The notes below the pieces were generated by a model, which saw nothing but the letters and a program-made list of their open reading frames with translations, did not search any database and was not told the DNA's origin. Positions 1-44,672 of a DNA stretch of 64,000 bases are shown in pieces (positions within the stretch are counted from its first letter, which is position 1; each line of letters starts with the position of its first letter). Position numbers and translations under genes: made by a program. The DNA lies in the NCBI RefSeq assembly GCF_051622035.1, contig NC_135360.1, positions 1,856,001-1,920,000 of the forward strand, read 5' to 3'. Source of the stretch: Arctopsyche grandis (lineage: Eukaryota; Arthropoda; Insecta; Trichoptera; Hydropsychidae).

Positions 1-668
1 TAATAAACGTTATCTTTAAATAAACAAAAATATTTAATAGTGATGTTGTGTCTGGATTGGTATTTTGATTTTGATTTATGAAATTTCAATAATTAAATTG
101 AAAAAGCGATATTCACATATTTTGCAGGAATAAAAACAGTTTTTCGAGTTTTTTGAAACGAACTTACGGGTAAAAGGTTAGTGCTTGATTATTTACGCGG
201 ATGTGGCATTATACTACAGAAAAACATGTTTTTACAATAATAAAGAAAAACCGCATGGAAATAACCACTCATTCGATATAAAAAAAATCATCTTCTCACA
301 GATAAAACACATTTTGAAATTAAAATTAAGATCATCGATAATAGAATTCGACAAACTACTCAAATCCGCCATGCATATTTTGCACTCAAGAGGAAAAAAA
401 TCTAAAGTAAGCAATTAATAAGAATTGATTAATAACCGAAAAATGTATTTTCTTCAAGATAATTTCAATGATAGTGGAAAAACCGCACAAAAAAACAACT
501 GATTATTGAAAATAGCATTGGAATGTTCGAACACGAACACGAAAATTTGAACTGGAAATTTTAAATAATGTTTATTAAATTTTAGGTCTTTTCTTAAGTT
601 TTTGGATTGAATTGTCTCATAAGCCACTCAACGGATCGAGATGAATCGTAAAAGTTATGATAACCCTT
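1..668 (+). repeat. Flank-A repeat, copy 1
   Basis: The same AT-rich sequence recurs at 10159-11063 plus 12425-12660, at 14255-15190 and at 38487-39640. Shared landmarks are a block at about 226-325 containing aaaaacatgtttttacaat and gaaaaaccgcatgg, then aaacaactgattattgaaaa, then a stretch near 600-655 containing ctcataagccactcaacgg. A short open frame at 185-418 reappears at 14584-14799 but not in the other two copies, so I do not call it a gene. Downstream of K3 and K1 this sequence separates the Kelch gene from the micro-exon gene, so it looks like part of a duplicated chromosomal block rather than a classical transposon. Confidence 0.7.
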
Positions 669-9985: not shown

Positions 9986-10158
9986 ACGAAGCTACTCGCC
10001 TTGCGCCCCCGCGGGGGTGAATCCATTGAAACGAAAAAAACAAATCGGCGCCCATGGATCGAAAAAAAAAAAATCGAATCACGTGTTCGATGACGTCACC
10101 GATCTACGGACGATGACCAAGGATACATACAAAGTCTCTTTCCAAATTATAGATTAGA

Positions 10159-11063
10159 TAGTATGATCGACTTTTCTTGCCAATGCATAAAATTATTAAA
10201 AATGAAAATAATTGCGATATTTAAAATATAAAAAAAAAATTAATGGAATTAAATTGCCATTTACCCAATATATCGAATTATTGGTAGTGAAATAGGTATA
10301 AATAAAGAGTAAGTACTTTCATAGTGCATGGATAAGAATTTCATATACAAACATATCAATTTAATAAAAAAATGAGAGTGAAAATTGAAATAAAAATAAA
10401 TATTTAAGCACATCAAAATACGTGCAGGTCAACTATTTTATTTTTAAGGTAAATAAAATAAGGTTAAAATAAGCAAAGTAACGTTAAGTTATTTTCTTAA
10501 TTTATTTATTCATAATCATTGAGAAATTTGAATTTATTTTTATTCCCTCTCAATTTTGTAATAAACGTTATCTTTTAATAAACAAAAATATTTAATAGTG
10601 ATATTGGATTGTTATTTGAATTTTGATTTATGAAATTTCAATGATTAAATTGTAAAAGCGATATTCACATATTTTTGCAAGAATAAAAACAGTTTTTGGA
10701 GTTTTTTGAAACGAACTTACATGTAAAGGGTTAGCACTTGATTATTTACCCGGATGTGGCATTATACTACACAAAAACATGTTTTTACAATAATAACGAA
10801 AAACCGCATGGAAATAACCACTCATCCGATATTAAAATAATCGTATTCTCACAGATAAAACACATTTTGAAATTAAAAATAAGATCATCAATTATTACTA
10901 AAGTAAGCAATTAATAAGAATTGATTAATAACCGAAAAATGTATTTTCTTCGAGATAATTTCAATGATAGTGGAAAAAACGCACAAAAAAACAACTGATT
11001 ATTGAAAATAGCATCAGAATTGTTGACACTGGTTTTAACTCTTATCTATAATATTATATTATA
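10159..11063 (+). repeat. Flank-A repeat, copy 2 (first part)
   Basis: Colinear with 38487-39410 downstream of K3's 5' end, starting at 'gtatgatcgacttttcttgcc'-type sequence. It is interrupted at 11064 by an insertion and resumes at about 12425. It contains no gene that I can see. Confidence 0.8.
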
Positions 11064-11237
11064 CTAGTGTTAGACCCGTTGATTTCAACGGGTGGTTTCG
11101 AAAAGGAATTGAAACTCGAATAAAAATAAAGTTAAAGATGTTGAATCGACTGGTTTCGGAAAGAAATTGATGCACGAATTACGAATGACAAATTACGAAG
11201 TGATTACGAATTACGAATTACATTTTGTGTATCGACG

Positions 11238-11706
11238 ACGCCTCCGGCACCCCGGGGCCTTCGCCCCCGGCGCTTCCGTCGCTCCGGGGCCTTCGGCCCC
11301 AGCGCCCCCGATGCCTTCGGCACCCCAGGGGCTTCGCCCCCAGCGCCACCGACGCCTCCGGCGCCCCCAATGCTTTCGGCACCCCGGGGGCTTCGCCCCT
11401 AGCGCCCCCGATGCCTCCGGCACCCCGGGGGCTTCGCCCCCAGCGCCGCCGGCGCCTCTGGCGCCCCCAATGCCTTCGGCACCCCGGGGGCTTCGCCCCC
11501 AGCGCCCCCGATGCCTCCGGCACCTCGGGGGCTTCGCCCCCAGCGCCGCCAACGCCTCCGGCGCCCCCAGCGCCCCCAATGCCTTCGGTACCCCGGGGGC
11601 TTCGCCCCCAGCGCCGCCGACGCCTCCGGCGCCCCCAGCGCCCCCAATGCCTTCGGCACCCCGGGGGCTTCGCCCCCAGCGCCCCCGATGCCTTCTGCAC
11701 CCCGGG
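11238..11706. repeat. GC-rich tandem array with GGGGGCTTCGCCCCC hairpins
   Basis: The motif cggggGCTTCGCCCCcagcgcc recurs in units of about 60-130 bp with variable 'ccgatgcctccggcacc' spacers. Each unit holds a strong hairpin with a TTC/GAA apex, the same core as in the H1 arrays. Long alanine/proline frames on both strands are by-products of codon-neutral GC repeats. Confidence 0.9.
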
Positions 11707-11934
11707 GCCTGAAAAAACTGGGAAACTGAAAAACTGAAAAACTGAAAAAAATAAAAAAAAAAATAATTTTCGATTGTCGACGAAAGCCGAAGTCGATTGT
11801 CGATTGTCGACGAAAGCCGAAGTCAATTGTCGATTGTCGACGAAAGCCGAAGATACGCGAATGATTGGTTCCCCATACTTGTAAAGGGTAATCGAATATT
11901 ATGTACGTAATTTAGAGCATTTTCTCTATCGAGA

Positions 11935-12000
11935 AGGCAGTGTAGTGGTTAGCGTGAATGTTCTGAACGCGGGGACCCCAGCTCGATCCCGCGTTTTGGA
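11935..12000 (+). other. tRNA-like (SINE-type) segment
   Basis: An A-box-like TAGTGGTTAGCG is followed 30 bp later by AGCTCGATCCC, close to the B-box consensus GGTTCGANNCC. This matches a tRNA-derived SINE head. The segment cannot be folded into a full tRNA by eye, so it is not called a tRNA gene. Confidence 0.45.
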
Positions 12001-12973
12001 ATTAATTTTATTTTTCAAATATCGCTAAAATATAAATTAATTTCAAATTTCAATAATTTCAATTAAAAATATATATTTAATTGTTTTATATGAAAAGAAA
12101 AAAAAATGGTTCAAAACCTCGCTAAATGAAATTATTAAAATTACGTATTTTTATATGGCGAGAAGGAATTTTTCAATTAATGTTTAAAAAAAAAAGGCGA
12201 AATGAAAAATTGGATTTGGCACGATGTCCGAGACCATTCCCTCATTAGACCCATATTCAGGCTATTTGGGGTGATCGGTTCGAGTCGCGACAAAGTCGTC
12301 TCGTCGAAAAATGAATTAATCGATTTTTATCGATTCGTTCATTATGTTCGGCGAGAGTTAGGACACACACACACACCCACACACACACCCACACACACAC
12401 AGATTACCGTCGTTATATATATTTGCTCCAATGCTAACTCATTTTATTTTCGTTTATAAACACGAAAATTCGAACTGGAGATTTTAAATAATGTGTATTG
12501 AATTTTAAGTCTTTCTTAAGTTTTTGGATTCAATTGTCTCATAAGCCGCTTAACGGATTGGGATAAATCGTAAAAGTTATGATAGATAAAACTTATGATA
12601 GCCCTTTCAAAAACGTATTACTGACGCTAACATATCTGGTAGTTATTGTATATCTATATATTTGAATGAAAGGGACACGAAAGAAACTTGCAAAGATAAA
12701 ACGTCCATCGACTTGGAAACAATCCAATTTGAATTTGTTACATCAGCATACGATGAAATCCATTTATCCATTTATCCAGCTATCTGAGCTGAAACTGAAA
12801 TTACTGCTCAGAATTGATAATATTATGGGAATAATAAACATGTGTATGTTAATCGGTGTGACTTCCTCAGTTATTGAGGACGCAGCCTCTCCATTGGACC
12901 TGAAAGTAAAGTGGTTGTAATTGTAATTGTAATTGTCTACCATCGATATATAATATTAGCAGTTACTACTTAC

Positions 12974-13417
12974 ATTTCAGATAGCATGGCCCAGCCCCGA
13001 TTTTTGATTTCAGAACCGCTATCAGAGCTGAAATTTAAATTAATTCGATTAATAACAATAATGTGATTTACTATAAATAATCATTCGTATAATAGATGTA
13101 AGCAGTTACAAATTACGTCCCGTATAATATGATCGAGGTTCCACTTTTTATTTCAAAATCATAATCTGAGCTGAAATTTATAAGCGATTGAGATTATTAA
13201 CATATCCAAGAATTGATAATAATGCAGAAACAATATATAACTGAGTTACTCGTTTGACGACGTGTTTGTCTCGGTGATGGATCTGAAAGAAAAGTGATTG
13301 AAATGAAGAATATTGTCAGTCATTGCTAAATAATCATACTCGTACATTGAAACTTACATTTCCGATGGCGATGTCGAGCTTCGACTCTTCATTTCCACAC
13401 CGAGCTGATTTTCCAAA
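12974..13417 (-). pseudogene. Micro-exon gene, copy 1 (5' end lost)
   Basis: Four exon-like modules sit between acceptor and donor signals on the minus strand: 13358-13417 (60 bp), 13250-13282 (33 bp), 13117-13170 (54 bp) and 12974-13027 (54 bp). Read with one carried base at the start and two at the end, all are open and phase-compatible, e.g. SDSGSE at the start of the last module. The same four modules with identical lengths occur at 39952-40397. The ATG exon that should lie above 13440 is cut off by Helitron-type sequence starting at 13477. The equivalent of the terminal exon (12666-12790) carries a small indel with a stop. The product is unknown. Confidence 0.45.
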
Positions 13418-13476
13418 CTGAAATTTAAAAGCGATTGCGATTATTTACATATCCGAATATTGATATTTATTTAAAA

Positions 13477-13559: not shown

Positions 13560-14231
13560 TATATGTTGTTATCATTTATATATTGCTGTCGGTTCCCTCA
13601 TCACTGAGGATCGTGACTATGATGTGCGGTCAACCAGCTGCCTCCATTCAGTTCTAAATTCGGCCAGGCGAAGACTTGCTACCGTGGAAGCGCCCGTCGC
13701 TGCAGATACTTGGTCAGTCCAGCGTGCGGGGGATCTGCCTCTGGCTCTTCTGCCTTCGACGCTACCAACCACAACCAACCGCTCCAGGCTCTCCTCACCT
13801 CTTCGTGCAATGTGGCCGAAGAACTGCAATATACGTTTCAGGCATATTGTTGACAATCTATCCTTGATTTTCAATTCTTCAAGAATAGACACATTCGTGC
13901 GTTTGTCGGTCCAAGGCACGCGCAGTAGCCGTCTCCAGGACCACATCTCGAAGGCATCGATTCTCCGTCTATCCGCCGCCTTCATGGTCCACGTCTCGAC
14001 ACCATAAAGGCAGACAGAAAAAACGAGACTCTTCACGAGACGGATTTTGACAGCAGTTGTAATGGCTCTATTCTTCCAAATCTTCGTTAGTTGTGACATT
14101 GCCGATTTTGCTAATGTAATCCGGCGCCGTATTTCCAATTCGCTGCCGCCGTTGTTAGATATGAGTGACCCCAGATAGACAAAATTATCAACCACATCTA
14201 TACCGTTTAAAGCTGAGTTGTTTATAATCAA
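13560..14231 (-). pseudogene. RTE-type LINE, C-terminal RT fragment
   Basis: An open minus-strand frame (13617-14231, 204 codons) matches the C-terminal part of RTE-clade endonuclease/reverse transcriptases: FVYLGSLIS, EIRRRI, LYGVETWTM, AFEMWSWRRLLRVPWTD and the basic tail near FFGHIARR. The polymerase core with its catalytic aspartates lies upstream and is absent; the frame is cut at 14231 by flank-A-type sequence. The short 3' UTR with ctcatcactgagg (about 13598-13610) is typical of this family. Non-autonomous remnant. Confidence 0.8.
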
Positions 14232-14254
14232 TATAAAACTGTAAAATTTCCAAA

Positions 14255-15190
14255 CAAAGTAACGTTTAGTTATTTTGTTTATTTATTTATTCTCAATCAT
14301 TGAGAAGATCGAATTTATTTTCCCCTCGACTCCTCTCTATTGATCAATTTTATAATAAACGTAATCTTTAAATAACCAAAAATATTCACGAGTGATCGCT
14401 AAAATGAACAATCTGAGCTAAGATATTGTGTCTGGATTGGTATTGGGATTTCGATTTCTGAAATTTCAAATGATTCCATTGTTAATGCGATATTCATATC
14501 TTTTGCAGGAATGAAAACAGTTTTTCGAGTTTTTTAAAACGAATTTTGGGTTAAAGGACTAGCGCTAGATTGCTTACACGGATATGAAATTAAACCACAG
14601 AAAAACATGTTTTTACAATAATAATGAAAAACCGCATGGAAATAACCACTCATCCGATATTAAAATAATCGGCTTCTCACAGATAAAACACATTTTGAAA
14701 TTAAAATTAAGATCATCAATAATAGAATTCGACAAACTAGTCAAATTCGCCATGCATATTTTGCACTCAAAAGGAATAAAATCTAAAGTAAGCAATTAAT
14801 AAGAATTATGTATTTAACCGAAAAATGTATTTTCTTCAAGATATGTAAATTCAATGATAGTGGAAAAACCGCACAAAAAAACAACTGATTATTGAAAATA
14901 GCATCAGAATTGTTGACATTGGTTTTAACTCTCATCTATAATATTATATTATATACTAAATGCATTGCTCCAATGCAAACTCGTTTTATTTTCGTTTATA
15001 AACACGAAAATTCGAACTGGAGATTTTAAATCCATCCATGGTTTTTAAATTTACTGTCACTGAATTGTATTTTCAAAATTTTACGTAGAACGGAAGTGGT
15101 ACCTGCTCTTTTTATTATAAGTTTTTGGATTCAATTGTCTCATAATTGCCACTCAACGGATTGGGATGAATCGTAAAAGTTATGATACAT
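14255..15190 (+). repeat. Flank-A repeat, copy 3
   Basis: Matches 1-668 and 38800-39560 with small indels and ends with the 'gtctcataa...ccactcaacgg' stretch at about 15135-15165. The short open frame at 14584-14799 is shared only with copy 1. I see nothing else in it or in 15190-15400. Confidence 0.75.
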
Positions 15191-15402
15191 AGGTACATAT
15201 GATGCATATACACACATATAATATGTATGTATTAGTATAATATTCTTTAAATATTATTGTGTAATAGGCAGTGATGTAGTGCTAAATTTTATGTCAAAAT
15301 TAAAAATCCCCAAATTCTGCGATCATAAAAAAACATATTTAGTTATTTGGTTTTTAACAGAATTTTTTTCAAAATGAATAAAAAGAATCATTTCCATACA
15401 TT

Positions 15403-16286: not shown

Positions 16287-17860
16287 GGGTAACCATCCTT
16301 TTTTTATAGAAAAAATTTTTTGAAGTGGGTAAAAAAAATCTAAAAATATAGCATCGTCTTTTAGCTATAAATAATTCTAAAAATTAAAATAAAATAATTT
16401 TTTGGACTGGGGTGACCAAACTTTTTTTATACAACAAAATCAGATGAAGTCAGAAAAAAAAGAAAAAATATTAAAATCATTTTTGGGCTATAAATGATTG
16501 CAAAATTTTAAATATAATAATATTTTGACTAGGGTAACCAGCCTTTTTTATTCAAAAAATTTCTTCAAGTTGAAAATAAAATTTAAAAATATTCCTATAG
16601 TTTTTATGCCATAAATGATGACAAAATTTTAAATAAAATAGTTTTTTGGAGTAGGGTAACCAAACTTTTTTTATAACATTTTTTTTAAAGCTAGAAAACA
16701 TCTAAAAATATTACAATCATCTCTGTGATATAAATTATTGCAAAATTTAAAATATAATAATATTTTGACTAGGGTAACCAGCCATTTTTTATTCAAAAAA
16801 TTTCTTCAAGTCGAAAATAAAATTTTAAAATATTCCTATAGTTTTTATACTATAAATGATGACAAAATTTAAAATAAAATAGTTTTTTGGAGTAGGGTAA
16901 CCAAACTTTTTATATAACATTTTTTTAAAGCTAGAAAACATCTAAAAATATTACTATCATCTCTGTGATATAAATTATTGCAAAATTAAAAATATGATAA
17001 TTTTTTGACTAGGGTAACCAGGTTTTTTATACAAAAATTTTTTTCGAGTTGGAAATAAAATTTAAAAGTCTTAATGCTATAAATATTACAAGCTTAAAAC
17101 ATATTTTTTTTGAGACAGGGCTTACCAATCTTTTCATACAACAATTTTTAATGTGAAAAAACAATCAATATAATATGTAAGTAATGTTTAATGACAATTT
17201 ATTATTATTTTAATTTAAAAAATAAATAAACTTAATTTAAATTTTGAAATTTGTATATCATTGTTAAAAAATTATTTTTTAAAAAATTTGAATATTTACT
17301 AATTTTAAAATAAAATTAGATCAAATCAAGATACAGTTAATAATGTATGTATGTTTAACTTTAAGCGAGAAAAAATCCAAAAATATTCCCATCGTTTAAA
17401 TGCTTTCAATTATTCTAAAATTTAAAATAAAATACTATAATTTTTTATACAACAAAAAAAATATTAAAATATTCCCACCGTTCTTATACAAAATTTAAAA
17501 TAAAATAGATTTTCAAAATAAATTAGATTATTTTGTCAATTAAAAAAATTCGTTGTATAAAAAAGGCTGGTTACCCTAATAAAATTTATAGTATATTATA
17601 TTTTAATCATAAAGATGATGGGAATATTTTGAGATGTTTTCTGACTTAAAAAAAAATTGTTGTATAACAAGGTTGGTTGCCCTAGTCAAAAAATCTATTT
17701 TATTTTAAATTTTGCATAGGGACGATGGGAATATTTTTCGATTTTAATCTCACTACAAAAATTTTGCTGTATAAAAAAGCCTGGTTACCCTAATCAAAAT
17801 TTATAGTATTTTAAATTTTAATCATAAAGAAGATGGGAATATTTGTAGATGTTTTCTCGC
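16287..17860. repeat. AT-rich satellite of about 120-bp period, in both orientations
   Basis: The marker agggtaacca (or close variant) recurs at 16287, 16410, 16531, 16653, 16771, 16894, 17011 and 17117, a 106-123 bp period. Alternate units resemble each other most (16531/16771/17011 versus 16653/16894), giving a 240-bp higher-order repeat. From about 17560 the marker appears inverted (ggttaccct at 17569 and 17783, ggttgccct at 17675). The array continues after the LINE at 22200-22315 and after the LTR at 22720-22785. 17120-17560 is degenerate. No coding. Confidence 0.85.
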
Positions 17861-17873
17861 TTAAAAAAAAATG

Positions 17874-17908
17874 TCACTCGTCTCTCGACGCTCCGTGAGA
17901 ACGGACGT
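17874..17908 (+). promoter_or_regulatory. Internal LINE promoter: initiator plus DPE
   Basis: The 5' junction reads tCACTC. Taking A at 17876 as +1, positions +28 to +33 (17903-17908) are GGACGT, fitting the degenerate DPE consensus at every base. An initiator plus a DPE at exactly this spacing drives jockey, Doc and I elements from their own first bases, which allows full-length copies to carry their promoter along. The initiator T comes from the host target duplication. Confidence 0.7.
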
Positions 17909-18040
17909 GCCGAAGACGTACTCTCTGTGCGAGCGCTCATAATACAGCGATACGCCATACCGTCAAAAAACCCACACCTTTTAACATATACAACAAACAC
18001 CCCCCACAAAACGAACACCAAAAGAACACATGTTGGCACC

Positions 18041-19240
18041 ATGCGAGGATCCAACCTGAAAAAGCGACTTAAGAAGACACTGATAACTACAACCGAAGCT
18101 CCTCAACCAGGCTGCTCTCAGACCGCTCAGATGGAGACCGAGTGGCAGTTTCCAAAACATACGGCAAAGAACGTGAAAGATGTTGCTCCTGAATTTAAAA
18201 TTCAGGAGAAAAACAAATTTGAAGGGCTCTTGGAAGTTTCCGATGTCCCCAGAAGCGGTGGAAGAATCCCGCCCATCATCATGACAGCTACTGGCACTCA
18301 CGGCAGCATGATCGAGTCGATCAAGAAGTTTATAAAAGACTTCACAATGACTTACATTGGTCAAAATAATGTCAAGATACAATGTAAAAGTCTTGAAGAC
18401 TTTAAAAAACTTCGGGATGGATTGACACCAGACCGACAATTCCATACCTTTTCCAGGAAGGAGGAAAAGGAAATAAAAAGTGTCATACGTGGCTTGCCGA
18501 AATTGCCGGAAGCTGATATTAAAGATGACATCATCAGACAGGGATTCCCTGTAACCAAAGTCATACAGATGAAGACGAAGGAGCCTAGGAGCAACGCCAC
18601 CGAGCTATACTTGGTGTTCTTCGAGCCATCGGTATCGGCAAAGAAGATTAAAGAAATCCGGTACATCTGTTACACAAAGGTCAGTGTCGTTAAATATACT
18701 AGTAAATCACAAAATATTACTCAATGTTTCAGATGCCAAGAATATGGACACGCTGCGAAAAACTGCAATCGGCAGGCCAAGTGCGTCAAATGTGCCGGCA
18801 CTCACCTCACCGCACAATGCAATCAAGGAATAGTTACCCCTGCTGTCTGCTCAGGCTGTTCAGGATCTCACCCCGCTAACTTCAAAGACTGTCCAAAAAG
18901 ACAGAGCTATCTGAAAATGCTGGAATCGAGGAAGAATCGAGCATCAATTGTCAAAGCCAACCCTTGGAAACTCCCAGTGGTGCAGCCACAAAATATCCCG
19001 GTCGTTAACGATCATAACTTCCCAAAGCTACCGACCATTAAAACTCCTTCACCAAATATCCCTAAAAAACCCCATAAACCAACCAATCCCAACATTCAAC
19101 CAACAACAGACCTAACTTCCATGGCGTCTATGACGAAGATGTTGAAGATCCTCCAGGAGATTCGTGCCAAGGCCAGCGGTTGCACCGACAAACTAGAGCT
19201 GGCACTCATGCTCGTCGAATATCTCGATGTCTTTGATTAA
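18041..19240 (+). CDS. LINE ORF1, gag-like nucleic-acid-binding protein
   Basis: Family ORF1 proteins bind element RNA and form ribonucleoprotein particles. This frame gives 399 aa from the ATG at 18041. The frame is open further upstream to 17849, but that ATG lies in host DNA outside the element, so 18041 is preferred. A basic N-terminus (GSNLKKRLKKT) is followed by a PRE_C2HC-type region ending around VVKYTSKSQNITQCFRC. Three CCHC-type zinc knuckles then span residues 229-284: CFRCQEYGHAAKNC, CVKCAGTHLTAQC and CSGCSGSHPANFKDC. A proline-rich linker and a C-terminal helix follow. The stop overlaps the ORF2 start. No frame damage is seen. Confidence 0.9.
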   Translation: MRGSNLKKRLKKTLITTTEAPQPGCSQTAQMETEWQFPKHTAKNVKDVAPEFKIQEKNKFEGLLEVSDVPRSGGRIPPIIMTATGTHGSMIESIKKFIKDFTMTYIGQNNVKIQCKSLEDFKKLRDGLTPDRQFHTFSRKEEKEIKSVIRGLPKLPEADIKDDIIRQGFPVTKVIQMKTKEPRSNATELYLVFFEPSVSAKKIKEIRYICYTKVSVVKYTSKSQNITQCFRCQEYGHAAKNCNRQAKCVKCAGTHLTAQCNQGIVTPAVCSGCSGSHPANFKDCPKRQSYLKMLESRKNRASIVKANPWKLPVVQPQNIPVVNDHNFPKLPTIKTPSPNIPKKPHKPTNPNIQPTTDLTSMASMTKMLKILQEIRAKASGCTDKLELALMLVEYLDVFD

Positions 19241-21917
19241 CGGGAGGCGCCTGAACATTCTAGCTTGGAATGCTCGTGGACTTAAGAATAAGATTGACGA
19301 ACTAGAGTCGGCGATCGGTGAGTACTGTGTTGACATAGTTTTAATCTCCGAGACCTTCTTAAAACCTCATATCCGTATTAACCTACCTAACTTTAACTGC
19401 TTTCACGAAGACCGAGAACAGCATGGAGGGGGAGTTGCCATTTTTATAAAATCGTCAATTAAACATTGTCGCGTAATAACTCCGCCACTAAAAAATTTAG
19501 AACTAACCGCCATCGAACTAACAATTAACAACACCCGTCACATAGTAGCATCCGCTTACAATCCTCCCCAAAAACGATTATTGGCATCCGATCTTAACAA
19601 AATATTTAACATTGGTAGTTCGGTAGTGGTAGCTGGTGACTTTAATGCTAAACATCCATTATGGAGTTGTGTAAACACTGACCAACAAGGCACAACTCTT
19701 TTTAAATACATTCAAATAACAGATACAATCTTGCTTCATCCGGATACATACACACACTATCCTACAAATAACTCACAACCATCCACACTAGATCTTGTCC
19801 TCGTCAAGAACTTCCCAAAAATATCGACACCAAATGCCCTTCAAACCCTGTCGTCTGATGATCTCCCGATAATCTTCTCAATCGACGGGAAACCCGAGGA
19901 AATCATCAAGCATAGTTGGGATTACGGGAAAGCTAACTGGCGAGAGTTCAAGTCGTACATAAACGACCAAACTATTCTAACTTCTACCACACTCACAAAC
20001 AAAACAGAAATCGACAGCTCCATAATACACCTGACGGAATCAATAGCTCGATCCAAACACCTTCACATACCTAAGACACAATATATTGAACACAAACTAG
20101 AGATAACTGACTTTGTTGCAAATCTAATTAAAAGTAAAAATAAACTCCGTAAAATTTGGCAAACATCAAAAAAACCAGCATTGAAAACATTAATTAATAA
20201 GCTCACATATCAAATTAAAATTAGAATCAAAGAAATCAAAAATGAAGCTTGGTCTAAAAAATTAGAAAAATTGAGCTCAGTTGATGGCTCTCTATGGAAA
20301 TTAGCTAAAGCGATTCGCAGGACAAAAAACTCGATTCCTCCATTAGATGATGCAGGAATCTCAGTGACGCGTGATTGCGACAAAGCAGAACTATTATCAA
20401 AATCCTTCCAAAAACATCACAAACTCACACAACATTACAATCACATACCAACGCATAATAAAGTCAACCGGTCCATTAAAATCATCACAAAAACTCCCAC
20501 TAACAGTACTAAAAATATAAAATTGGTGCATCCGTGTGAAATCCAAAATATAATACGTAATTTAAAAAATAAAAAGGCACCTGGGCGAGATTCAATAGAT
20601 AACATCACAATCAAACAACTTCCATTTAAAGCTTTAGTCTCACTATCTAAAATATTCAACGCATGTTTACTCACTGGGTATTTCCCAGAATACTGGAAAA
20701 CAGCCAACGTAATTCCCATACTTAAGCCCGATAAAAGCTCAAAAAACCCGACCAATTATCGACCCATTAGCTTACTTTGCACGCTTTCAAAAATTCTGGA
20801 AAAAATAATCTACACACGTTTACTTAAAGTCGTAAATAAGAAATTAATAAATGAACAATTTGGATTTCGCACTGGACATTCCACGACCCAACAACTAACA
20901 AGACTAACTGAACACGTGACGAAGAACTTTAATATGAAGAGAAGTACCGGAATGGTATGTCTCGACATAGAAAAGGCCTTCGACACGGTTTGGCACGATG
21001 GACTCATTCATAAGCTCCTTATTAACAAAATACCAAACTACCTAATTCTCATCATCAAATCGTACTTAACTCGTAGAAAGCTAGTGGTTAGCGTAAATAA
21101 TGAATTATCGTCTCCAAAAATAATCGCAGCTGGCGTTCCGCAGGGGAGCTTGCTTGGCCCACTCTTGTTCTCCATATATATAAATGACATACCTATTCCA
21201 AAAAACTGTCACATAGCCCTATATGCAGATGATACAGCTTGCTTCACAAGTAGCAAAAAACCAGACACTATTCTTAAAAATCTTGAATTTGCAATTAAAA
21301 CAATGACTGAACACTTCACTAAATGGAAAATTCAAATTAATCAAACCAAAACAGACGCCATATTCTTTAGTGTTAGAAAACATAAGCCAAGTTCAGATCT
21401 GAAAATCCCCTCTGGAGAAAGTCTGAAATGGCAGTCAGTAATAAAATATTTAGGAGTAACGTTTGATAAAAGAATGAGATGGGCACCTCACATTGAGGCA
21501 GCGAAATGCAAGGCGATGCGGGGTATATCCTCAATATATCCAATATTTAATCGCCATAGTTCTTTATCAACGCTAAATAAAATAAAATTATATCGTGCGC
21601 TCATATTACCATTATTAACCTATGCTTCACCTGTATGGAATAACGCCTCGAATACTAACCTTTCCAAGCTCCAAGTAATACAAAATAAATCCCTTAAAAT
21701 AATTTATAATACACCCATATATACTAACCTGAAAAAACTGCATGCTATATATAATATTCCGTTTGTTACAGACATTACTAACAAACTAACCAGTAGATTC
21801 TATGAAAGAATCACTAATAACCATACTAACACACTTGTGAAGAGTCTCGGCGATTACAACAAAATGTCTATACCCTTCAGGTATAAACACAGATTACCTA
21901 AACACAATCTGCTTTAG
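19227..21917 (+). CDS. LINE ORF2, endonuclease and reverse transcriptase
   Basis: 896 aa, starting 14 nt before the ORF1 stop in the +1 frame, so translation probably depends on termination/reinitiation or frameshifting. The N-terminal APE-type endonuclease has NILAWNARGL, ISETFL, GGGVAIFIK and VVAGDFNAKHPLW. At its end, where SDH is expected, residues 210-213 read S-D-D-L: codon 212 is GAT (19860-19862). The truncated sister copy has CAT there. The conserved His is catalytic in this family, so nicking activity is probably lost. The RT follows with NYRPISLLC, EKAFDTVWHDGL, GVPQGSLLGPLL and catalytic YADD at 666-669, then the thumb. All frames are otherwise intact. Confidence 0.92.
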   Translation: MSLINGRRLNILAWNARGLKNKIDELESAIGEYCVDIVLISETFLKPHIRINLPNFNCFHEDREQHGGGVAIFIKSSIKHCRVITPPLKNLELTAIELTINNTRHIVASAYNPPQKRLLASDLNKIFNIGSSVVVAGDFNAKHPLWSCVNTDQQGTTLFKYIQITDTILLHPDTYTHYPTNNSQPSTLDLVLVKNFPKISTPNALQTLSSDDLPIIFSIDGKPEEIIKHSWDYGKANWREFKSYINDQTILTSTTLTNKTEIDSSIIHLTESIARSKHLHIPKTQYIEHKLEITDFVANLIKSKNKLRKIWQTSKKPALKTLINKLTYQIKIRIKEIKNEAWSKKLEKLSSVDGSLWKLAKAIRRTKNSIPPLDDAGISVTRDCDKAELLSKSFQKHHKLTQHYNHIPTHNKVNRSIKIITKTPTNSTKNIKLVHPCEIQNIIRNLKNKKAPGRDSIDNITIKQLPFKALVSLSKIFNACLLTGYFPEYWKTANVIPILKPDKSSKNPTNYRPISLLCTLSKILEKIIYTRLLKVVNKKLINEQFGFRTGHSTTQQLTRLTEHVTKNFNMKRSTGMVCLDIEKAFDTVWHDGLIHKLLINKIPNYLILIIKSYLTRRKLVVSVNNELSSPKIIAAGVPQGSLLGPLLFSIYINDIPIPKNCHIALYADDTACFTSSKKPDTILKNLEFAIKTMTEHFTKWKIQINQTKTDAIFFSVRKHKPSSDLKIPSGESLKWQSVIKYLGVTFDKRMRWAPHIEAAKCKAMRGISSIYPIFNRHSSLSTLNKIKLYRALILPLLTYASPVWNNASNTNLSKLQVIQNKSLKIIYNTPIYTNLKKLHAIYNIPFVTDITNKLTSRFYERITNNHTNTLVKSLGDYNKMSIPFRYKHRLPKHNLL

Positions 21918-28910: not shown

Positions 28911-31900
28911 AGTTTCGTTCAAAATGTCATGACACCTTTAGCCGTATAAAACCAATTTACTCTACCGTGCGAAAAAAGAATGGAACTTTTAGAAATGAAA
29001 AAATAACACGAATAATCAAAAGAAATACCAATTCTTTAAGTGAAAATCCAAATAATTCAAATTTGTATGTGAAAAAATACACTATTACATTTCAGAAGCG
29101 CCGGTATAAAGACAATTAAAGGAAATATTTTGATTACTTTGAAAAAATAATTACGAAAATATAAAAATAAAAAATATGTAAATAATTGAGAAACGTTTCT
29201 TGAAATGGTTGACAATTACTGAAAACATAGATGAATAAAATTATCCCATAAAAATACTATTAAACTTAATAAAAGTGTGAAAAACCATCTTAAAATCAGT
29301 CGAAAATCATTGAAAACACAAAAATATGTATTCATCAAAATTTTTTATTGGAGAATCTCTGGTACTACAAACCGTTTGAGAATAACTGGAATTTAATAAA
29401 CGGATGGAAATCTGTGAAATCATTTGAATTTGTAAAGTAACATTATTTGGAAATTAACTTTAGGATAAAAACATATTAATAAAATAAAAGTTTCAGAGCC
29501 ACTGACATTAACATATTGATTATTTCTCATAAAAGTTAACAACACTAGAAAATTTCACAATTCGATAAAAACCACGATATAACAAAATAAAAATGTAAAA
29601 GTATTTGAGAAACCTTCATAAAATCATTTGAGAGCCGTTGGAATGCAGCAAATTGCAAAAACATATATGAAATTCATCTTGATTTTTAAATAAAAGAAAT
29701 AATTATGAAAAGTTTGAGAATCACTTGAATGAATAATGGAAAAGTATTATTTAATCGACGAAAAGTGTGAAAAATATTTGAGAGCCACTGTTTGAAATAA
29801 ATTTAAAGAAATATACAAAATTTATTTTCAATTTCGATATTATTTAAACAAGAAAAATTATTAGAAATGAAATATAACATTTCTGGATTGAATTGAATTG
29901 AATTCATTTTTACGTAAAAAATATGTATGTATATGTTTTTGATTTTGGCTTCTGATTCTCTGATTTTTCAGTTCATTTAGATAATATTAATTATTCATGA
30001 GTAAATAAACATTAAATATTGACGGAAAAATAAAATATATTTTGAGAAGTTGTTGCATATTATGTATTTATTCAAACATTTGGATAAATTAAAAATTCAA
30101 AAAGTACATTTAATGATTATTTCAAAATACATTTTTTTCAAATAATACAAAAAAACTGCAGTCGATCAAATAATCGAATCATATGGAATGACATTTGCAA
30201 CTGCATAAGATCTCTTTCTGCTCAGACTTGTTGAAGCTTTCCAAGATTTGTTCGTCTCGTCGTATTCCCAAACATCACTTTTATTGTATCCACCTGAATA
30301 TCAAAACAATAAATTAATTCTACATTCGAGACCCATAAATCCAAATTAAGTTGTAAAAAAACTCACCCATGCTAAACAGTTTATTTTGGAAACAGCCGAG
30401 ACTGATTCCGTATGCAGCTTGCGGTAGTTTGGTGAATGCAGTCCACACATTTGCATTCGGATCGTAATGCTTCACACTGTCTAAACTAGAAGAAGTTTCC
30501 CAATCATATCCACCAGCGACGTAAAGTTTTCCTTTGAATGCGACGCTCTAAAATGGCGAAATCAAAATTTAGTTCATTTTATTTTGGAGAGTTTTATATT
30601 ATTTGCGATAGTTGTGAATAAAATTAATTGATGTTCACCGAATGATCATGTCTTCCCTGAATCATCTGAGCGCGGTAAGTCCAAGAATTGGTCTCCACTG
30701 AATACATCTGCACTTTATTCGTGGATATCCGTTCACTTGTAAACCCGCCTGTTATGTATATTTTATCGGCGATGACAGAAGCACTATGATCACTAATTGC
30801 CACCAACATAGGAGCGATGATCTCCCAATCCCCAGTGTTGCTGCTCCACCTAATCGAAATCAATAATCGTCAACTTCTCTTTCAATCGATCTGATGAAAT
30901 GATTGCAATTAATCACCTTTCCACTGAAGATAAATAGTCACCACCAATGGCGTAAACATCCGTGGACGAACCGCGCCGAAGTGTCACTGCTGAGAATAAA
31001 AAGCGAGCTTGATTTAATGGCTTCAATGGCTTTTTCTCACCGCTATTCAAATCGATGTATTCTACCTCCTAAAACAAATAAATTGGTTATATTCCGATTT
31101 CTCTAAGCAGGTACTTCGCAACACCGGAAAACGTTACTGAAGTCATTGATCCATTTGAAAAATTATATCCGCCGATGATAACTATCCAATCTCCCACGAG
31201 GACAGACGCAAAAGATGATTTATTTATTCCAATATTTTTGGATAGAGACCAACTGTTCTTTAATCCGTCAAATATATCGATGGTGTTTGCCACCTGAAAA
31301 CACGTTATGCAATAAAATAATTAATTTACAATCCAATCAAAATATTATACTTGTGATACAAAACTCACATCTAAATAATTCCCCCCAACCAGTGCCATTT
31401 TTTGTATTATTCTACGAGGGGTCTCTCTTGGGACGAAAGATTTATCTTTCTTGTCTTTAACTGCTTGTCTAAGAGTGGTCATACAATCTGCACACGAATG
31501 ACAGAAAGTTAATACTTCGTCGATGAAAAACTAAAAAAAAAAATTATTAAAATGGATTTTTTTCAATAAACTGCAACATTCAATTAATCTCAAATACCTC
31601 CATCGAGAGCAAGGATAACCTCACGGATCTCATCAGCTGTGCCAAGTCACTTTTACGGTTCGCATTATCATGATTTACCCACAATTTCACAGCATTAAAT
31701 ATGCTTTCTTCGGAACGCACAAACAAATCGTCCCATTTCAAGATTTCGTTCACGTTGAAGAGCGGCAGATTGAGAAAATCTTTAGTTTTGTGCAGCTAAA
31801 ACAGAAGTGGAGTTGAAAAATATTTAAGTGACATATTTTTTTATATAATCAACACTCACCATCTCGAAATTTCCCAGAGTCAAATCCATTGCCTCTGTCT

Positions 31901-35830: not shown

Positions 35831-38134
35831 TCAAATAATCGAATCATATGGAATGACATGTGCAACTGCACCAAATCTAATTCTGCTCAGACTTGTTGAA
35901 GCTTTCCAAGATTTGTTCGTCTCGTCGTATTCCCAAACATCACTTTTATTGAATCCACCTGAAAATCAAAACAATAAATTAATTCTACATTCGAGACCCA
36001 TAAATCCAAATTAAGTTGTAAAAAAACTCACCCATGCTAAACAGTTTATTTTTGAAACAGCCGAGACTGATTCCGTCTGCAGCTTGCGGTAGTTTGATGA
36101 ATGCAGTCCACACATTTGCATTCGGATCGTAATGCTCCACACTGTCTAAATAAGTACGAGTTTGCCAATCATGTCCACCAGCGACGTAAAGTTTTCCTTT
36201 GAATACGACGCTCTAAAATGGTGAAATCAAAATTTAGTTCATTTTATTTTGGAGAGTTGTATATTATTTGCGATAGTTGTGAATAAAATTATAATTGATG
36301 TTCACCGAATGACGATGTCTTCTCTGAATCATCTGAGCGCGGTAAGTCCAAGAATTGGTCTCCACTGAATACATCTGCAGTTTATTCGTGGATAACCATT
36401 TTCCATTTTCACTTGGTTCCCCGCCTGTTATGTATATTTTATCGGCGATGACAGAAGCACTATGATCACTAATTGCCACCAACATAGGAGCGATGATCTC
36501 CCAATCCCCAGTGTTGCTGCTCCACCTAATCGAAATCAATAATCGTCAACTTCTCTTTCAATCGATCTGATGAAATGATTGCAATTTAATCACCTTTCCA
36601 CTGAAGATAAATTGTCACCATCAGAACCACCAATGGCGTAAACATCCGTGGACGAACCGCGCCGAAGTGTGACTGCTGAGAAGTCATAACGAGCTTGATT
36701 TAATGGCTTCAATGGCTTTTTCTGACCGCTTTTCAAATCGATGTATTCCACCTGAAAACAAATAAATTGGTTATATTCCGATTTCTCTAAGCAGGTACTT
36801 CGCAACACCGGAAAACGTTACTGAAGTCATTGATCCATTTGAAAAATTATATCCGCCGATGATAACTATCCAATCTCCCACGAGGACAGACGCAAAAGAT
36901 GATTTATTTATTCCAATATTTTTGGATAGAGACCAACTGTTCTTTAATCCGTCAAATATATCGATGGTGTTTGCCACCTGAAAACACGTTATGCAATAAA
37001 ATAATTAATTTACAATCCAATCAAAATATTATACTTGTGATACAAAACTCACATCTAAATAATTCCCCCCAACCAGTGCCATTTTTTGTATTATTCTACG
37101 AGGGGTCTCTCTTGGGACGAAAGATTTATCTTTCTTGTCTTTAACTGCTTGTCTAAGAGTGGTCATACAATCTGCACACGAATGACAGAAAGTTAATACT
37201 TCGTCGATGAAAAACTAAAAAAAAAATTTATTAAAATGGATTTTTTTCAATAAACTGCAACATTCAATTAATCTCAAATACCTCCATCGAGAGCAAGGAT
37301 AACCTCACGGATCTCATCAGCTCTGCCAAGTCACTTTTACGGTTCGCATTATCATGATTTACCCACAATTTCACAGCATTGAATACGTCTTCTTCGGAAG
37401 GCACGTTCAAATAATTCGATTTCAAGATTTCGTTCACGTTGAAGAGCGGCAGATTGAGAAAATCTTTAGTTTTGTGCAGCTAAAACAGAAGTGGAGTTGA
37501 AAAATATTTAAGTGACATATTCTTTTATATAATCAACACTCACCGTCTCGAAATTTCCCAGAGTCAAATCCATTGCCTCTGTCTTCAATTCGGAATCTTC
37601 CGTTGATTTCAAAACTTCCAAACAATTGGAAAGATCGACCGTTTCATGTCGCGGTGGAATTTTCACTTCGAGTCGATTTGCTAGCTCCATTAATTTGTCG
37701 TAGTGACGGTCAGCTATGCCTAAAATTATATTTCAATTATTAAATTTAATGACGAACACATACGCATTTTGAATTGATTATTTCAGATAATAATGAACTC
37801 GTACTTATTTCTCCAGTGTAACAATACTTCAGGATTGCATCGATTACGTCAAATTCAAAAGGGGAAAAAGTCTCACTCAATTTATCTATGTTTCTACTAA
37901 AGAATTCGCTGTACGCCGATAACACGACCAAGTGCGCGTAGAAGCTGCAATTATGATAAATGATAATTAAACTGACAAAACACTTTGGATTTTAAGAATA
38001 TTTGGATTCGAATTAAAATACTATCGGCCTCGAACAGCAAAACTCGTGTCGCATTTCTTATCTCGTTTCATGGCGTCATACAAATACTCCACCCGTTTTG
38101 CCGCAAAATCGGAACTTGCCTTCACTATGAACAT
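35831..38134 (-). CDS. BTB-BACK-Kelch (KLHL-type) protein K3
   Basis: Ten exons, all with GT-AG introns of about 65-95 bp: 38022-38134, 37805-37944, 37544-37719, 37282-37479, 37053-37214, 36822-36977, 36594-36751, 36306-36525, 36032-36212 and 35831-35958. They sum to 1632 nt, in phase throughout, giving 543 aa. The BTB domain covers about residues 20-115 (HLVVLSAYSEFF, AILKYCYTGEIS), BACK about 120-240 (FLNLPLFNVNEIL, VFNAVKLWVNHD). Six Kelch repeats with GG doublets follow (ALVGGN, VIIGGY, YAIGGS, YITGGE, YVAGGH, FSMGGF). Proteins of this plan are usually Cul3 adaptors; the substrate is unknown. A 5' UTR exon probably ends at 38223. Length fits the family. K1 and K2 are damaged paralogues. 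Confidence 0.9.
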
Positions 38135-38275: not shown

Positions 38276-38486
38276 ATCTCGATAGATAAGGATATCTCAA
38301 CCCTTTCGTTGCATTGAAACGTATATTAATTATTTACTGAAGTTAATTATTTCTCATAAATGCCATGACAGGTGACCAACATACGGGGAATATATAATTG
38401 AACTTTAGTTAAGATAAGGGCTGTGGAATCAGACTCCGACGTTTTGCTATGATTCGATTCGGACTCGAATTATTATATAATATTAT

Positions 38487-39631
38487 AGTATGATCGACTT
38501 TTCTTGCCTACGTATAAAATTATTAAAAATGAGAATAATTGTAATATTTAAAATAAAATAAAAAAAAAAATGGAATTAAATTGCCATTTACCCAATATAT
38601 CGAATTATTGGTAGTGAAATAGGTATAAATAAAGAGTAAGTACTTTCATAGTGCATGGATAAGAATTTCATATACAAACATATCAATAAAAAAATGAGAG
38701 TAAAAATTGAAATAAAAATAAATATTTAAGCACATCAAAATACGTGCAAGTCAACTATTTTATTTTTAAGGTAAATAAAATAAGGTCAAAATAAACAAAG
38801 TAACGTTAAGTTATTTTATTTATTTATTTATTCATAATCATTGAGAAGATTGAATTTATTTTTATTCCCTCTCAATTTTGTAATAACCGTTATCTTAAAT
38901 AAACAAAAATATTTAATATTTAATTTGAACAAAGATGTTGTGTCTGAATTGGTATTTGAATTTTGATTTATGAAATTTCAATGATTAAATTGTAAAAGCG
39001 ATATTCACATATTTTGCAAGAATAAAAACAGTTTGTCGACTTTTTTGAAACGCACTTACAGGTAAAGGGTTAGCACTCGATTATTTACACGGATGTGGAA
39101 TTAAATCACAGAAAAACATGTTTTTACAATAATAATGAAAAACCGCATGGAAATAACAACTCATCCGATATTAAAATAATCGTCTTCTCACAGATAAAAC
39201 ACATTTTGAAATTAAAAATAAGATCATCGATTATTACTAAAGTAAGCAATTAATAAGAATTGATTAATAACCGACAAATGTATTTTCATCAAGATATGTA
39301 ATTTCAATGATAGTGGAAAAACCGCACAAAAAAACAACTGATTATTGAAAATAGCATCAGAATTGTTGACACTGGTTTTAACTCTTATCTATAATATAAT
39401 ATTATATACTAAAGCATTGCTCCAATGCAAACTCATTTTATTTTCATTTCTAAACACGAAAATTTGAAATAATGTGTATTAAATTTTAGGTCTTCTCTTA
39501 AGTTTTTGGATTCAATTGTCTCATAAGCCGCTTAGCGGATTGGGATGAATCGTAAAAGTTATGATAGATAAAAGTTATGATAGCCCTTTCAAAAACGTAT
39601 AACTGACGCTAACATATCTGGTGGTTATTGT
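38487..39631 (+). repeat. Flank-A repeat, copy 4
   Basis: Uninterrupted version of 10159-11063 plus 12425-12660, including the junction ('tatatactaaagcattgctcc' around 39405) that shows copy 2 carries an insertion. It separates K3 from the micro-exon gene and has no open frame of note. Confidence 0.8.
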
Positions 39632-40488
39632 TTATCTAAATGAGAGGAACAGGAAAGAAACCTGCAAAGATAAAACGTTTATCGACTTGGAAACAATCCA
39701 TTTTGAATTTGTTCGATCAGCATATGATGAAATCCATTTATTCATTTGTCCCCAGCTATCCGAGCTGAAACTGACATATCCGAGAATTGATAATATTATG
39801 GGAATAATATACATATGTATGTTAATCGGTGTGAGTTAATCGGCTCATTTATTGAGGACGTAGCCTCGCCAATGGACCTGAAAGTAAAGTGATTGTAATT
39901 GTATTTGTAATTGTCTACCATCGATAAATAATATAAGCAGTTACAACTTACATTTCAGATAGCATGGCCCAGACCCGATTTTTGTTTTCAGAACCGCTAT
40001 CAGAGCTGAAATTTAAAATAATTCGATTAATAACAATACATGTGATTTACTATAAATAAATCATACGTATTATAGATATAAGCAGTTACAACTTACGTTT
40101 CGTATAATGTGATCGAGCTTCCACTTTTTGTTTCGAAATCACATTCTGAGTTGAAATTTATAAGCGATTGAGATTATTAACATATCCGAGGATTGATAAT
40201 AATACAGAAACAATGTATAAATGAGTTACTCGTTTGACGACGTTGGTGTCTCAGTGATGAACCTGAAAGAAAAGTGATTGGAATTATGAATATTGTCAAT
40301 CATTGCTAAATAATCATAGTCGTACATTGAAACTTACATTTCCGATGGCGATGCCGAGCTTCGACTCTTCATTTCCATACCGAGCTGACTTTGCGAACTC
40401 AAATTTAAAAGCGATTGCGATTATTTACATATCTGAGAATTGATATTTCGCCATTTCCATTTCCACTGCCATCGTTCGCGTTGGCCAT
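39632..40488 (-). CDS. Candidate micro-exon gene of unknown function
   Basis: The minus strand shows an ATG exon (40445-40488, MANANDGSGNGNGE). Modules at 40338-40397 (60 bp), 40230-40262 (33 bp), 40097-40150 (54 bp) and 39952-40005 (54 bp) follow, then a longer exon 39632-39764 that ends in a stop (SDSWGQMNKWISSYADRTNS...). Each internal module starts after one carried base and ends with two, so all are symmetrical phase 2 and freely combinable. They encode Ser/Glu/Thr-rich peptides such as FITETPTSSN and SDSGSENKNRVW. The ATG exon reaches phase 2 at GAAAT, the same ending as two modules, but the GT donor is missing there. Module 40097-40150 has lost its AG. One further segment ending at 39877 has an acceptor but no donor. 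Real gene or fresh pseudogene; product not recognised. Confidence 0.4.
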
Positions 40489-41040
40489 CTTCAATTGCTC
40501 AAATTGATCTTTCAAACTCTCTTCACTGTCAAACTGTCATTTTGACACTTCACTGACACTCCACTCATAACGTTTACAAATCCGACCATTACCTTTTGAC
40601 TTTTTTTTTCTCTCTTCCGCTTAATTAATTCGCAAGTAGATCCAGAGTCAAGTACTATTCGAGTTGCAAATGCAATCCAAATAGTTAAAATTTCCCTCCA
40701 AAGAAAAAAAAATTACTATAAAAATTCAAAGTAAAAAAAAACCTATAAATAACGCCAACATTCTTGCATAAATGTAACGTGAAGAAGGGGGGGGGGCAGG
40801 ATTACGATTATTAAAATGGGAAAATACAGGTATTTCATGATGTATCCTTCGTATTTATGTTGAATACCCAAATTAATATTATTTTTTGTAAGTCACCGTT
40901 TTATATTTTACACCCAGGAGCTGTAGATATACATATTTTCATTTCAAATGACTTAAGTAGTAATACATTTATATTATTCCGAAACAAATCCCATTATCCA
41001 GAGAATTATATATAGAATTAATATTCTTAATCCAGAGAAT
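40489..41040. other. Upstream region of the micro-exon gene
   Basis: 40489-40610 looks like a 5' UTR on the minus strand, with repeated cagtgaag/tgacagt motifs. 40610-41040 is AT-rich with a ggggggggc run at 40788; no gene is visible. Confidence 0.4.
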
Positions 41041-43173: not shown

Positions 43174-44672
43174 CTAGCTGTATTACCCGGCTTCGCTCAG
43201 TGTTTATAATATAAACCGCTTAAACATGACTAAGCTAATTTAAATTAAAAAAAAAAAAAAAAATTTAAAATTTTAAAAAAAAATTTAAAAAAAAAAAAAA
43301 AAAATCAAATTTTTTTTTTGCCTTCTATGGCTTCGCCCTCGGCACCCCCCTGAGCCTTTGCCTTCTAGGGCTTCGCCCCTCCACGCCCCATGAGCAATTG
43401 CCGTTTAGGGCTTCGCCCCCATGATCAGTTGCCTTTTAGGGCTTCGCCCCTCCGCGCCCCCATGATTCAAAGCCGTCTAGGGCTTCGCCCCCCATAGTTA
43501 ATGCCTTTTAGGGCTTCGCCCCCCGCGCCCCCAAGATTAATTGCCGTTTAGGGCTTCGCCCCCCTTAACTAATGCCTTTTGGGGCTTCGCCCCTCCGCAC
43601 CCTCATGATTAAATGCCGTCTAGGGCTTCGCCCCCATGATCAGTTGCCGTTTAGGGCTTCGCCTCATAAGGCTGCGCCCCATGGGGCTTCGCCCCATGAG
43701 GCTGCGCCCCCTTCGGGGCCCCATGGGGCTGCGCCCCCTTGCGCCCCCTTCGGGGCCCCATGCGGCTAAGCTCCATAAGGCGGCGCCCCATAAGGCGGCG
43801 CCCCATAAGGCAGCACCCCATAAGGCGGCGCCCCATATGGCGGCGCCCCATAAGGCTGCGCCCCATAAGACAGCGCCCCATAAGGCTGCGCCCCATAAGG
43901 CGGCGCCCCATAAGGCAGCGCCCCATAAGGCGGCGCCCCATGAGGCTGCGCCCCCCTGCGCCCCCTTCGGGGCCCCATGGGGCTGCGCCCCATGAGGCTG
44001 CGCCCCCTTTGGGGCCCAATGAGGCTGCACCCCCTTCGGGGCCCCATGAGGCTGCGCCCCCTTTGGGGCCCCATGGGGCTGCGCCCCATGAGGCTGCGCC
44101 CCCTTCGGGGCCGCATGCGGCTAAGCTCCATAAGGCGGCGCCCCATAAGACTGCGCCCCATAAGACTGCGCCCCATAAGACAGCGCCCCATAAGGCTACG
44201 CCCCATGAGGCTGCGCCCCCTTTGGGGCCCCATGGGGCTGCGCCCCCTTCGGGGCCCCATGTGGCTAAGCTCCATAAGGCGGCGCCCCATAAGGCGGCGC
44301 CCCATAAGGCGGCGCCCCATAAGGCTGCGCCCCATAAGACAGCGCCCCATAAGGCTGCGCCCCATAAGGTTGCGCCCCATAAGGCTGCGGCCGATAAGGC
44401 TGTGCCCCATAAAGCTGCGCCCCCTTTTGAGCCCCATGGGGCTGCGCCCCATGAGGCTGCGCCCTCCGGGCCCCCTTCGGGGCCCCACGGGGCTGCGCCC
44501 CTTGTGGCGCCCCTGGCGGGGCCCCATGAAGCTACTTGAAAAAAACAAATCGGCGCCCATGGATCGAAAAAAAAAAAATCGAATCACGTGTTCGATGACG
44601 TCACCGATCTACGGACGACGACGACGACGACCAAGGATACATACAAAGTCTCTTTCCAAATTATAGATTAGA
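43174..44672 (-). mobile_element. Helitron-like element H1, copy 2, with GC-rich hairpin arrays
   Basis: Same ends as copy 1: minus-strand start TCTAATCTATAATTTGG (44672) and end CCGGGTAATACAGCTAG (43174), inserted between A and T inside the mariner. The edges next to the ends are nearly identical to copy 1 (gatgacgtcaccgatctacg near 44595, ttataatataaaccgctt near 43205), but the interior arrays differ in size and unit. Confidence 0.8.
43320..44535. repeat. GC-rich tandem arrays inside H1 copy 2
   Basis: 43320-43660 repeats the 'tagggcttcgccccc' unit found in copy 1. 43771-43955, 44130-44210 and 44275-44420 are runs of a 15-bp unit ccccataaggcggcg with variants. Between them are 'ccccttcggggccccatgg' blocks. 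All frames are open by composition; no protein is implied. Confidence 0.9.

Follow-up and report, generated by a model that had tools for sequence, protein, structure and literature searches.

Two sets of very short, splice-site-bounded segments on contig C6 of the caddisfly Arctopsyche grandis raise the question of whether they are exons of an active gene assembled from small interchangeable modules, or the decaying remains of such a gene. The window analysed here (C6:1856001-1920000) is a stretch of 64,000 nucleotides within a genome assembly of 475.7 Mb and 189 contigs, and a preliminary description of it had read the conserved lengths and phase of the modules as a sign of coding selection. 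Gene families with this general design have been described: the parts of the published reports drawn on here present the schistosome micro-exon genes (MEGs) as having very small symmetrical exons, with products found in secretions and glands (PMC4350168), and the bicycle genes as having many unusually small internal exons, nearly all of them of phase 2 (PMC9168663). Caution is required in this case, in that module lengths and an open phase shared by two young paralogues are no proof of selection, and a comparison of many copies is needed to tell an active family from a decaying array. Such a comparison leads us to conclude that the two copies in the window are very probably pseudogenes of a micro-exon gene with a live-looking form on a different contig, C2, and that the C6 array is decaying neutrally.

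The eight modules of the preliminary description were recovered at their coordinates and with their lengths (8/8, minus strand; Table 1), and all eight are open in the 1-in/2-out phase, so that the single shared phase stands. The claim that each module is bounded by AG and GT holds for seven of the eight, the exception being the segment at 40097-40150, where the acceptor reads AA (window 40151-40152 is TT). These modules are the best-preserved ones of the unit, in which two further remnants are broken; for the outermost of these (39713..39764) no matching donor was seen in the window sequence, and its indels and stops, scored with boundaries 2 nt off, differ among copies.

Table 1. Window positions of the two copies of the amplified unit, their modules and related fragments
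Feature	Position	Strand	Remarks
Copy 1, A-type 60-nt module	40338..40397	-	acceptor TTTGAG, donor GTAAGT; phase-2 open; relic similar to exon 2 of the C2 gene
Copy 1, B-type 33-nt module	40230..40262	-	TTTCAG / GTAACT; open
Copy 1, A-type 54-nt module	40097..40150	-	acceptor lost (TTTCAA); close to C2 exon SDCDSETKSESSLTLYG
Copy 1, A-type 54-nt module	39952..40005	-	TTTCAG / GTAAGT; open
Copy 1, fifth module remnant, B type	39845..39877	-	CAG acceptor kept; donor lost, reads GCCGAT
Copy 1, sixth module remnant, A type	39713..39764	-	CAG acceptor present (edge 39764/39765); left end arbitrary
Exon 1 remnant, ATG and ~13 codons, fused to former intron sequence	40447..40488	-	copy alignment
5' flank common to copies extending beyond 40448	40449..40846	.	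copy alignment
Window copy 1 of amplified unit	38472..40448	.	co-amplified DNA reaches left to 35633 in one other locus
Window copy 2 of amplified unit	10146..13468	.	split by insertion at ~11064-12422
Copy 2, A-type 60-nt module	13358..13417	-	TTTCAG / GTAAGT
Copy 2, B-type 33-nt module	13250..13282	-	TTTCAG / GTAACT
Copy 2, A-type 54-nt module	13117..13170	-	TTTCAG / GTAATT
Copy 2, A-type 54-nt module	12974..13027	-	TTTCAG / GTAAGT
Copy 2 (locus L007), fifth module remnant	12867..12899	-	donor GT changed to GG (GGAAGT)
Start of further truncated unit	14221..15191	.	sequence match to unit
Another truncated unit fragment	1..662	.	sequence match to unit

The two copies align in two segments, 38472-39406 corresponding to 10146-11063 at 92% identity and 39417-40448 to 12423-13468 at 89%. 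Their introns do differ by indels, as had been noted, with three events (1, 1 and 5 nt) over 39776-40448, none of them in a module; because the total is so small, the absence of indels from the modules is uninformative. Substitutions, counted over the four modules and the fifth remnant, are no less frequent in modules (25/234, 10.7%) than in introns (34/432, 7.9%).

Both window copies are members of a locally amplified repeat found mainly on C6, a contig of 34.75 Mb. A genome-wide search for further copies, which the preliminary description had proposed as a check, returned at least 62 matching pieces with 39400-40460 as query (40 of 163 candidate places scored), of which 39 lie on C6 at 1.80-4.35 Mb, 13 on C2, five on C9, three on C12 and two on C13; these piece counts are lower bounds, and a single copy may yield several pieces. 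Queried in the same way, the adjacent flank (38793-39392) gave at least 50 pieces, with 40 of 151 candidates scored, and 37 of these fall at 1.79-4.57 Mb of C6. Homology passes leftward beyond 38501 in many copies. Rightward it ends at 40448 in many copies, the next unit starting some 100-145 bases further on, and reaches approximately 40800-40846 in others.

This copy number permits a direct comparison of modules and introns. From 30 loci, 25 were aligned (L024, L025, L027, L029 and L030, partial or overlapping, were left out), and L026 and L028, truncated or divergent, were set aside, giving 23 copies, 21 on C6 and two on C9. Events in five modules and the introns beside them were then counted by parsimony, with a tree built in FastTree. 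Modules and introns have accumulated equal numbers of events per site (127/234, or 0.543, and 234/433, or 0.540, respectively). Nonsynonymous and synonymous events (N/S) number 92/29, against 100.9/35.4 expected from the intron spectrum (p=0.68), and a CpG-aware recount gives 91.7/29.4 against 99.7/32.9. Stops were created in modules by four events, with 6.6 expected. Indels number six in or across modules versus 22 in introns (p=0.41), and four of these six have lengths that are not multiples of 3 (34, 21, 2, 8, 15 and 38). The 20 splice-dinucleotide sites took 15 substitution events, with 10.8 expected. Purifying selection on modules relative to introns is absent in this 23-copy family, a result whose scope is the family and not the window pair alone, and an earlier conservation profile of 13 copies showed modules no better conserved than introns. 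The proposal that conserved length and phase reflect coding selection on the window copies is thereby rejected: module divergence equals intron divergence, N/S is neutral, neither indels nor splice-site losses are depleted, and frame-breaking indels, stops and lost splice sites occur in some of the copies, an outcome that the preliminary description itself had named as counting against its proposal.

Retention of splice dinucleotides across the 23 copies varies from module to module. The 60-nt A module (40338-40397) keeps its donor GT in 10 copies and its acceptor AG in 18, the 33-nt B module (40230-40262) keeps both dinucleotides in all 23, and the first 54-nt A module (40097-40150) has an acceptor AG in 16; at 39952-40005 the donor survives in 22 copies and the acceptor in 23, and the donor of the fifth module in 17. 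All four of the modules noted at the outset are intact in seven copies, namely L004, L005, L006, L007 (window copy 2), L016 and L017 on C6 and L018 on C9, as is expected of young copies. The youth of the copies (89% identity within the window pair), together with inheritance of the splice motifs, would account for the intact look that the window modules retain.

The 5' end of the unit is broken. An ATG is kept in 11 of the 11 tested copies that have the 5' region, and copy alignment shows exon 1 in these copies to be a short remnant joined to former intron sequence, nearly all of the exon being missing. Between the ATG and the first stop, window copy 1 contains GTs in phase 1 and phase 0 only and none in phase 2, for which reason an in-frame first exon starting at 40488 was rejected; phase-2 GTs are present in some other copies, in a non-consensus context. 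Window copy 2, which can be aligned with the other copies only as far as 40448, is without a 5' end. In neither window copy, then, is a start codon joined in frame to the modules. The stretch 40474-40514 matches the 5' end of the C2 gene at 90%, and short remnants of the exon 1 start are detectable in some C6 copies. Genome searches place exon 1 itself only at C2:3571645-3571947 and C2:3631562-3631864, together with a fragment near C2:533749.

The gene at the first of these C2 positions, gene 1 (locus L031, minus strand, C2:3569756-3572016), looks intact, with 14 exons, 334 codons and introns of 65-222 nt. Its first exon, of 374 nt, ends at a phase-2 donor (GTAAGT) and is followed by micro-exons of 60, 33, 54, 33, 33, 54, 51, 57, 33, 48, 33 and 54 nt and by a terminal exon of 88 nt; micro-exons of 33-60 nt therefore account for 12 of the 14 exons and for 543 of the 1005 coding nt. 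All 12 are multiples of 3, of phase 2-2 and flanked by consensus-like splice sites, and none contains a stop in the coding phase, versus seven and eight of the 12 in the other two phases. By type, the modules fall into A (~42-66 nt) and B (24-33 nt), arranged in tandem and phase-symmetric, each with its own splice sites. Judged from these sequences, the architecture of tiny interchangeable exons appears genuine in this genome, and the intact-looking C2 relatives bear out the symmetrical phase-2 micro-exons, minus-strand orientation and Ser/Thr/Glu-rich product that had been proposed for the window. Directly downstream of gene 1 lies a tandem array with a unit of ~552 bp (L031 1-3226).

A copy of gene 1 in inverted orientation, ~60 kb away at about C2:3631.5-3633.8 kb, has no indel in its exons and differs from gene 1 at 5 of 1005 exon sites and, among 1227 aligned intron sites, at 22; as 24 of these 27 differences cluster between intron 3 and intron 5, the pair says little about selection. 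Two micro-exon loci (L031, L046, L051 and L052) are each present as a mirror-image pair inside ~65 kb, at C2:3569756-3633783, which suggests that the region is a large inverted repeat or was duplicated during assembly. Used as a query, the micro-exon region of gene 1 matched C5 and C10 over short lengths and identified two more loci with several modules on C2, one of which is again present as a mirror pair. Exon 1 was not found near these genes 2 and 3 in the C2 stretches examined, so that only gene 1 looks complete. The terminal exon of gene 3 (L053, C2:2.12 Mb) is 64% identical in protein to that of gene 1, with one codon-sized gap, and dN/dS between the two genes is 0.54 over exons 12, 13 and the terminal exon, a value resting on 162 sites only. 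In the same comparison nonsynonymous divergence (25.5/124.7) exceeds noncoding divergence (31/305; p=0.005), and synonymous divergence is higher still (12.5/37.3). Genes 1 and 3 share 96% of aligned positions (124/129) in their 3' untranslated stretches and 78% (134/172) in the adjoining coding exons, the reverse of the usual pattern. Positive selection, with exons evolving faster than introns, was considered and dropped, though mismatches between C2 and C6 are more frequent in exons (58/261) than in introns (78/485; p=0.046); base composition may be the cause of the higher exon divergence.

The C2 loci were also scanned for splice-site pairs without regard to frame, each strong acceptor within a gene region being matched to the nearest strong donor that lies 21-150 nt downstream. 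The splice scores were trained on gene 1, whose own result (12/12) is not independent. Gene 3 gave 11 pairs, all multiples of 3 and all open, and gene 2 (L051) gave 10, all multiples of 3 and nine of them open, with a stop in the remaining one; two acceptors in each of these genes (out of 12 in gene 2 and 13 in gene 3) had no strong donor. Control strands yielded 0/2 opposite gene 1, 0/0 opposite gene 3 and 0/1 on the plus strand of the window. The minus strand of the window gave 8/8 multiples of 3, of which six are open and two, closed by stops, are not single modules; because these two non-modules are included in the 8/8, chance or inheritance still enters into the measure. When two control stretches of the window were scanned on both strands under stricter rules for chains, no chain of four appeared.

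The predicted product of gene 1 (334 aa) is Ser/Asp/Glu-rich overall and comprises a unique exon 1 segment of ~90 residues, with a Gly/Asn/Ser-rich N-terminus (MANPNPNPNGG); the middle is acidic and rich in Ser (SDSDSE-like) and the tail basic (KICKKRR). Cysteines stand at 36, 199, 236, 255 and 315 and tyrosines at 212, 229 and 326. By eye, no hydrophobic signal peptide is evident in the predicted product, and we would guess at a nuclear or cytoplasmic location on that account. Pfam searches with exon 1 or the whole predicted product returned nothing above cut-off (best E 0.027 for DCD_C and 0.094 for IPP-2), and no convincing relation to exon 1 was found among PDB sequences, where the best match (E 0.0005) was read as falling in the Gly/Ser-rich stretch. 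The terminal-exon peptide weakly matches a repeat on the plus strand of the window at 30231-30305, 35896-35949 and 7948-7995 (E 0.012-0.13); these three matches were disregarded as probably due to chance.

Could the window copies nonetheless belong to a live family on C6, as two active micro-exon genes on which coding selection acts? We regard this as very improbable. Such genes would be expected to look much as the window does in several respects, with all eight modules open in one phase and seven of them bounded by AG/GT, with an ATG retained in each of the tested copies (some of which have a phase-2 GT, in non-consensus context), with all four modules intact in several copies, window copy 2 included, and with splice sites held in all or nearly all of the 23 copies by the modules at 40230-40262 and 39952-40005. 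Against this stand the equal rates of modules and introns, the neutral N/S, the undepleted indels and splice losses, and the loss of nearly all of exon 1, with no phase-2 GT between the ATG and the first stop in window copy 1. Least probable of all is that the repeat is a transposable element or satellite with incidental splice-like motifs and that no such gene exists anywhere in the genome: high copy number, clustering and repeated units fit that description, yet it is contradicted by an intact-looking 14-exon gene with 12/12 modules open in one phase only, by an independent locus (gene 3) in which 11/11 modules are symmetrical and open and the terminal exon is homologous and in frame, and by the two opposite-strand controls and the window plus strand, which together give 0/3 such pairs.

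A different role for the C6 array, in which it would be non-coding in itself and would either act as a reservoir, supplying the C2 genes with modules by gene conversion or recombination, or be transcribed as non-coding RNA, strikes us as no more credible than active genes in the window. The many near-intact modules in the array would suit a reservoir, as would the patch of 24 differences in the gene-1 pair, which resembles a conversion tract; the identity of ~69-88% between C2 gene 1 and its matched C6 pieces is, however, low for recent exchange.

The reading that we prefer, a live-looking gene on C2 and neutrally decaying pseudogene copies on C6, would involve a simple series of steps. Each C2 module begins and ends in phase 2, so that its inclusion, skipping or duplication would be frame-neutral, and the modules would have multiplied as exon-intron units duplicated in tandem, a process that keeps the frame because each exon is of phase 2-2. 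The C2 gene would be spliced and translated. The C6 array would derive from a C2-like gene, one descendant of which lost almost all of exon 1 together with its donor, leaving the ATG no longer in frame with the modules. This exon-1-less descendant would then have multiplied as part of a larger repeat, mainly at C6:1.8-4.6 Mb and with a few copies on other contigs, the copies presumably spreading by segmental duplication.

Segmentally amplified arrays of intron-bearing pseudogenes are a known class, and the C6 copies resemble them in their retained introns, lost first exon, concentration in one chromosomal region and neutral divergence. The C2 gene, in turn, has most of its coding sequence in very small symmetrical exons, the main feature of the micro-exon architecture, and in this it resembles the schistosome MEGs as they are described in the part of the report drawn on here (PMC4350168); it differs from them, on the same comparison by description, in that their products were found in secretions and glands and its own predicted product has no signal peptide by eye. 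The window copies depart from schistosome MEGs in being, in all likelihood, pseudogenes. With the bicycle genes of aphids, phylloxerans and scale insects the C2 loci share small internal exons that are nearly all of phase 2, and the existence of more than one related locus, as far as the cited part of that report goes (PMC9168663). Compared by description, many, though not all, bicycle homologs have an N-terminal signal sequence, whereas the C2 product has none by eye and contains five Cys and three Tyr in a Ser/Asp/Glu-rich chain with a basic tail. The C2 family resembles MEGs and bicycle genes in exon architecture alone, and kinship to either is not implied. A literature search gave no further micro-exon family that could be tied to the C2 family, for which novelty is not claimed.

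The symmetry of the C2 micro-exons would allow frame-safe alternative splicing. We tentatively entertain, at somewhat below even confidence, the idea that the C2 loci are an arthropod micro-exon family producing a predicted non-secreted, perhaps nuclear, Ser/Asp/Glu-rich protein through phase-2 shuffling of A and B modules, the module set having been duplicated repeatedly, both in genes and in the dead array on C6. If true, micro-exon modularity would not be limited to secreted effectors: MEGs and bicycle genes have been linked to secreted products, and a family with no evident signal peptide would suggest that the same design arose outside them, via tandem duplication of exon plus intron.

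Several other features of the window and the genome were recorded. Rfam and tRNA scans of the window found none. A model of fibroin P25, a Lepidoptera family, likewise gave no match, in a search that had no positive control. GC-rich tandem repeats stand in AT-rich DNA at window 9028-9993, 11262-11707 and 43359-44464, the second of them inside the insertion that splits copy 2. Just past copy 2, at window 13617-14231 (minus strand), lies an open frame that by eye resembles the C-terminal part of an RTE-type reverse transcriptase. An apparently full-length jockey-like non-LTR retrotransposon occupies window 17849-21917, with two overlapping open frames of 463 and 896 aa that look, by eye, zinc-knuckle gag-like and endonuclease/reverse transcriptase-like, respectively; a second, partial ORF2 is at window 4451-6187. 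Elsewhere in the assembly, a COX1 frame at C1:36084329-36085669 (L041), inside a contig of more than 36 Mb, reads as arthropod-like and is intact under the invertebrate mitochondrial code; it represents either a recent transfer of mitochondrial DNA to the nucleus or a mitochondrial sequence that the assembly attached to this contig.
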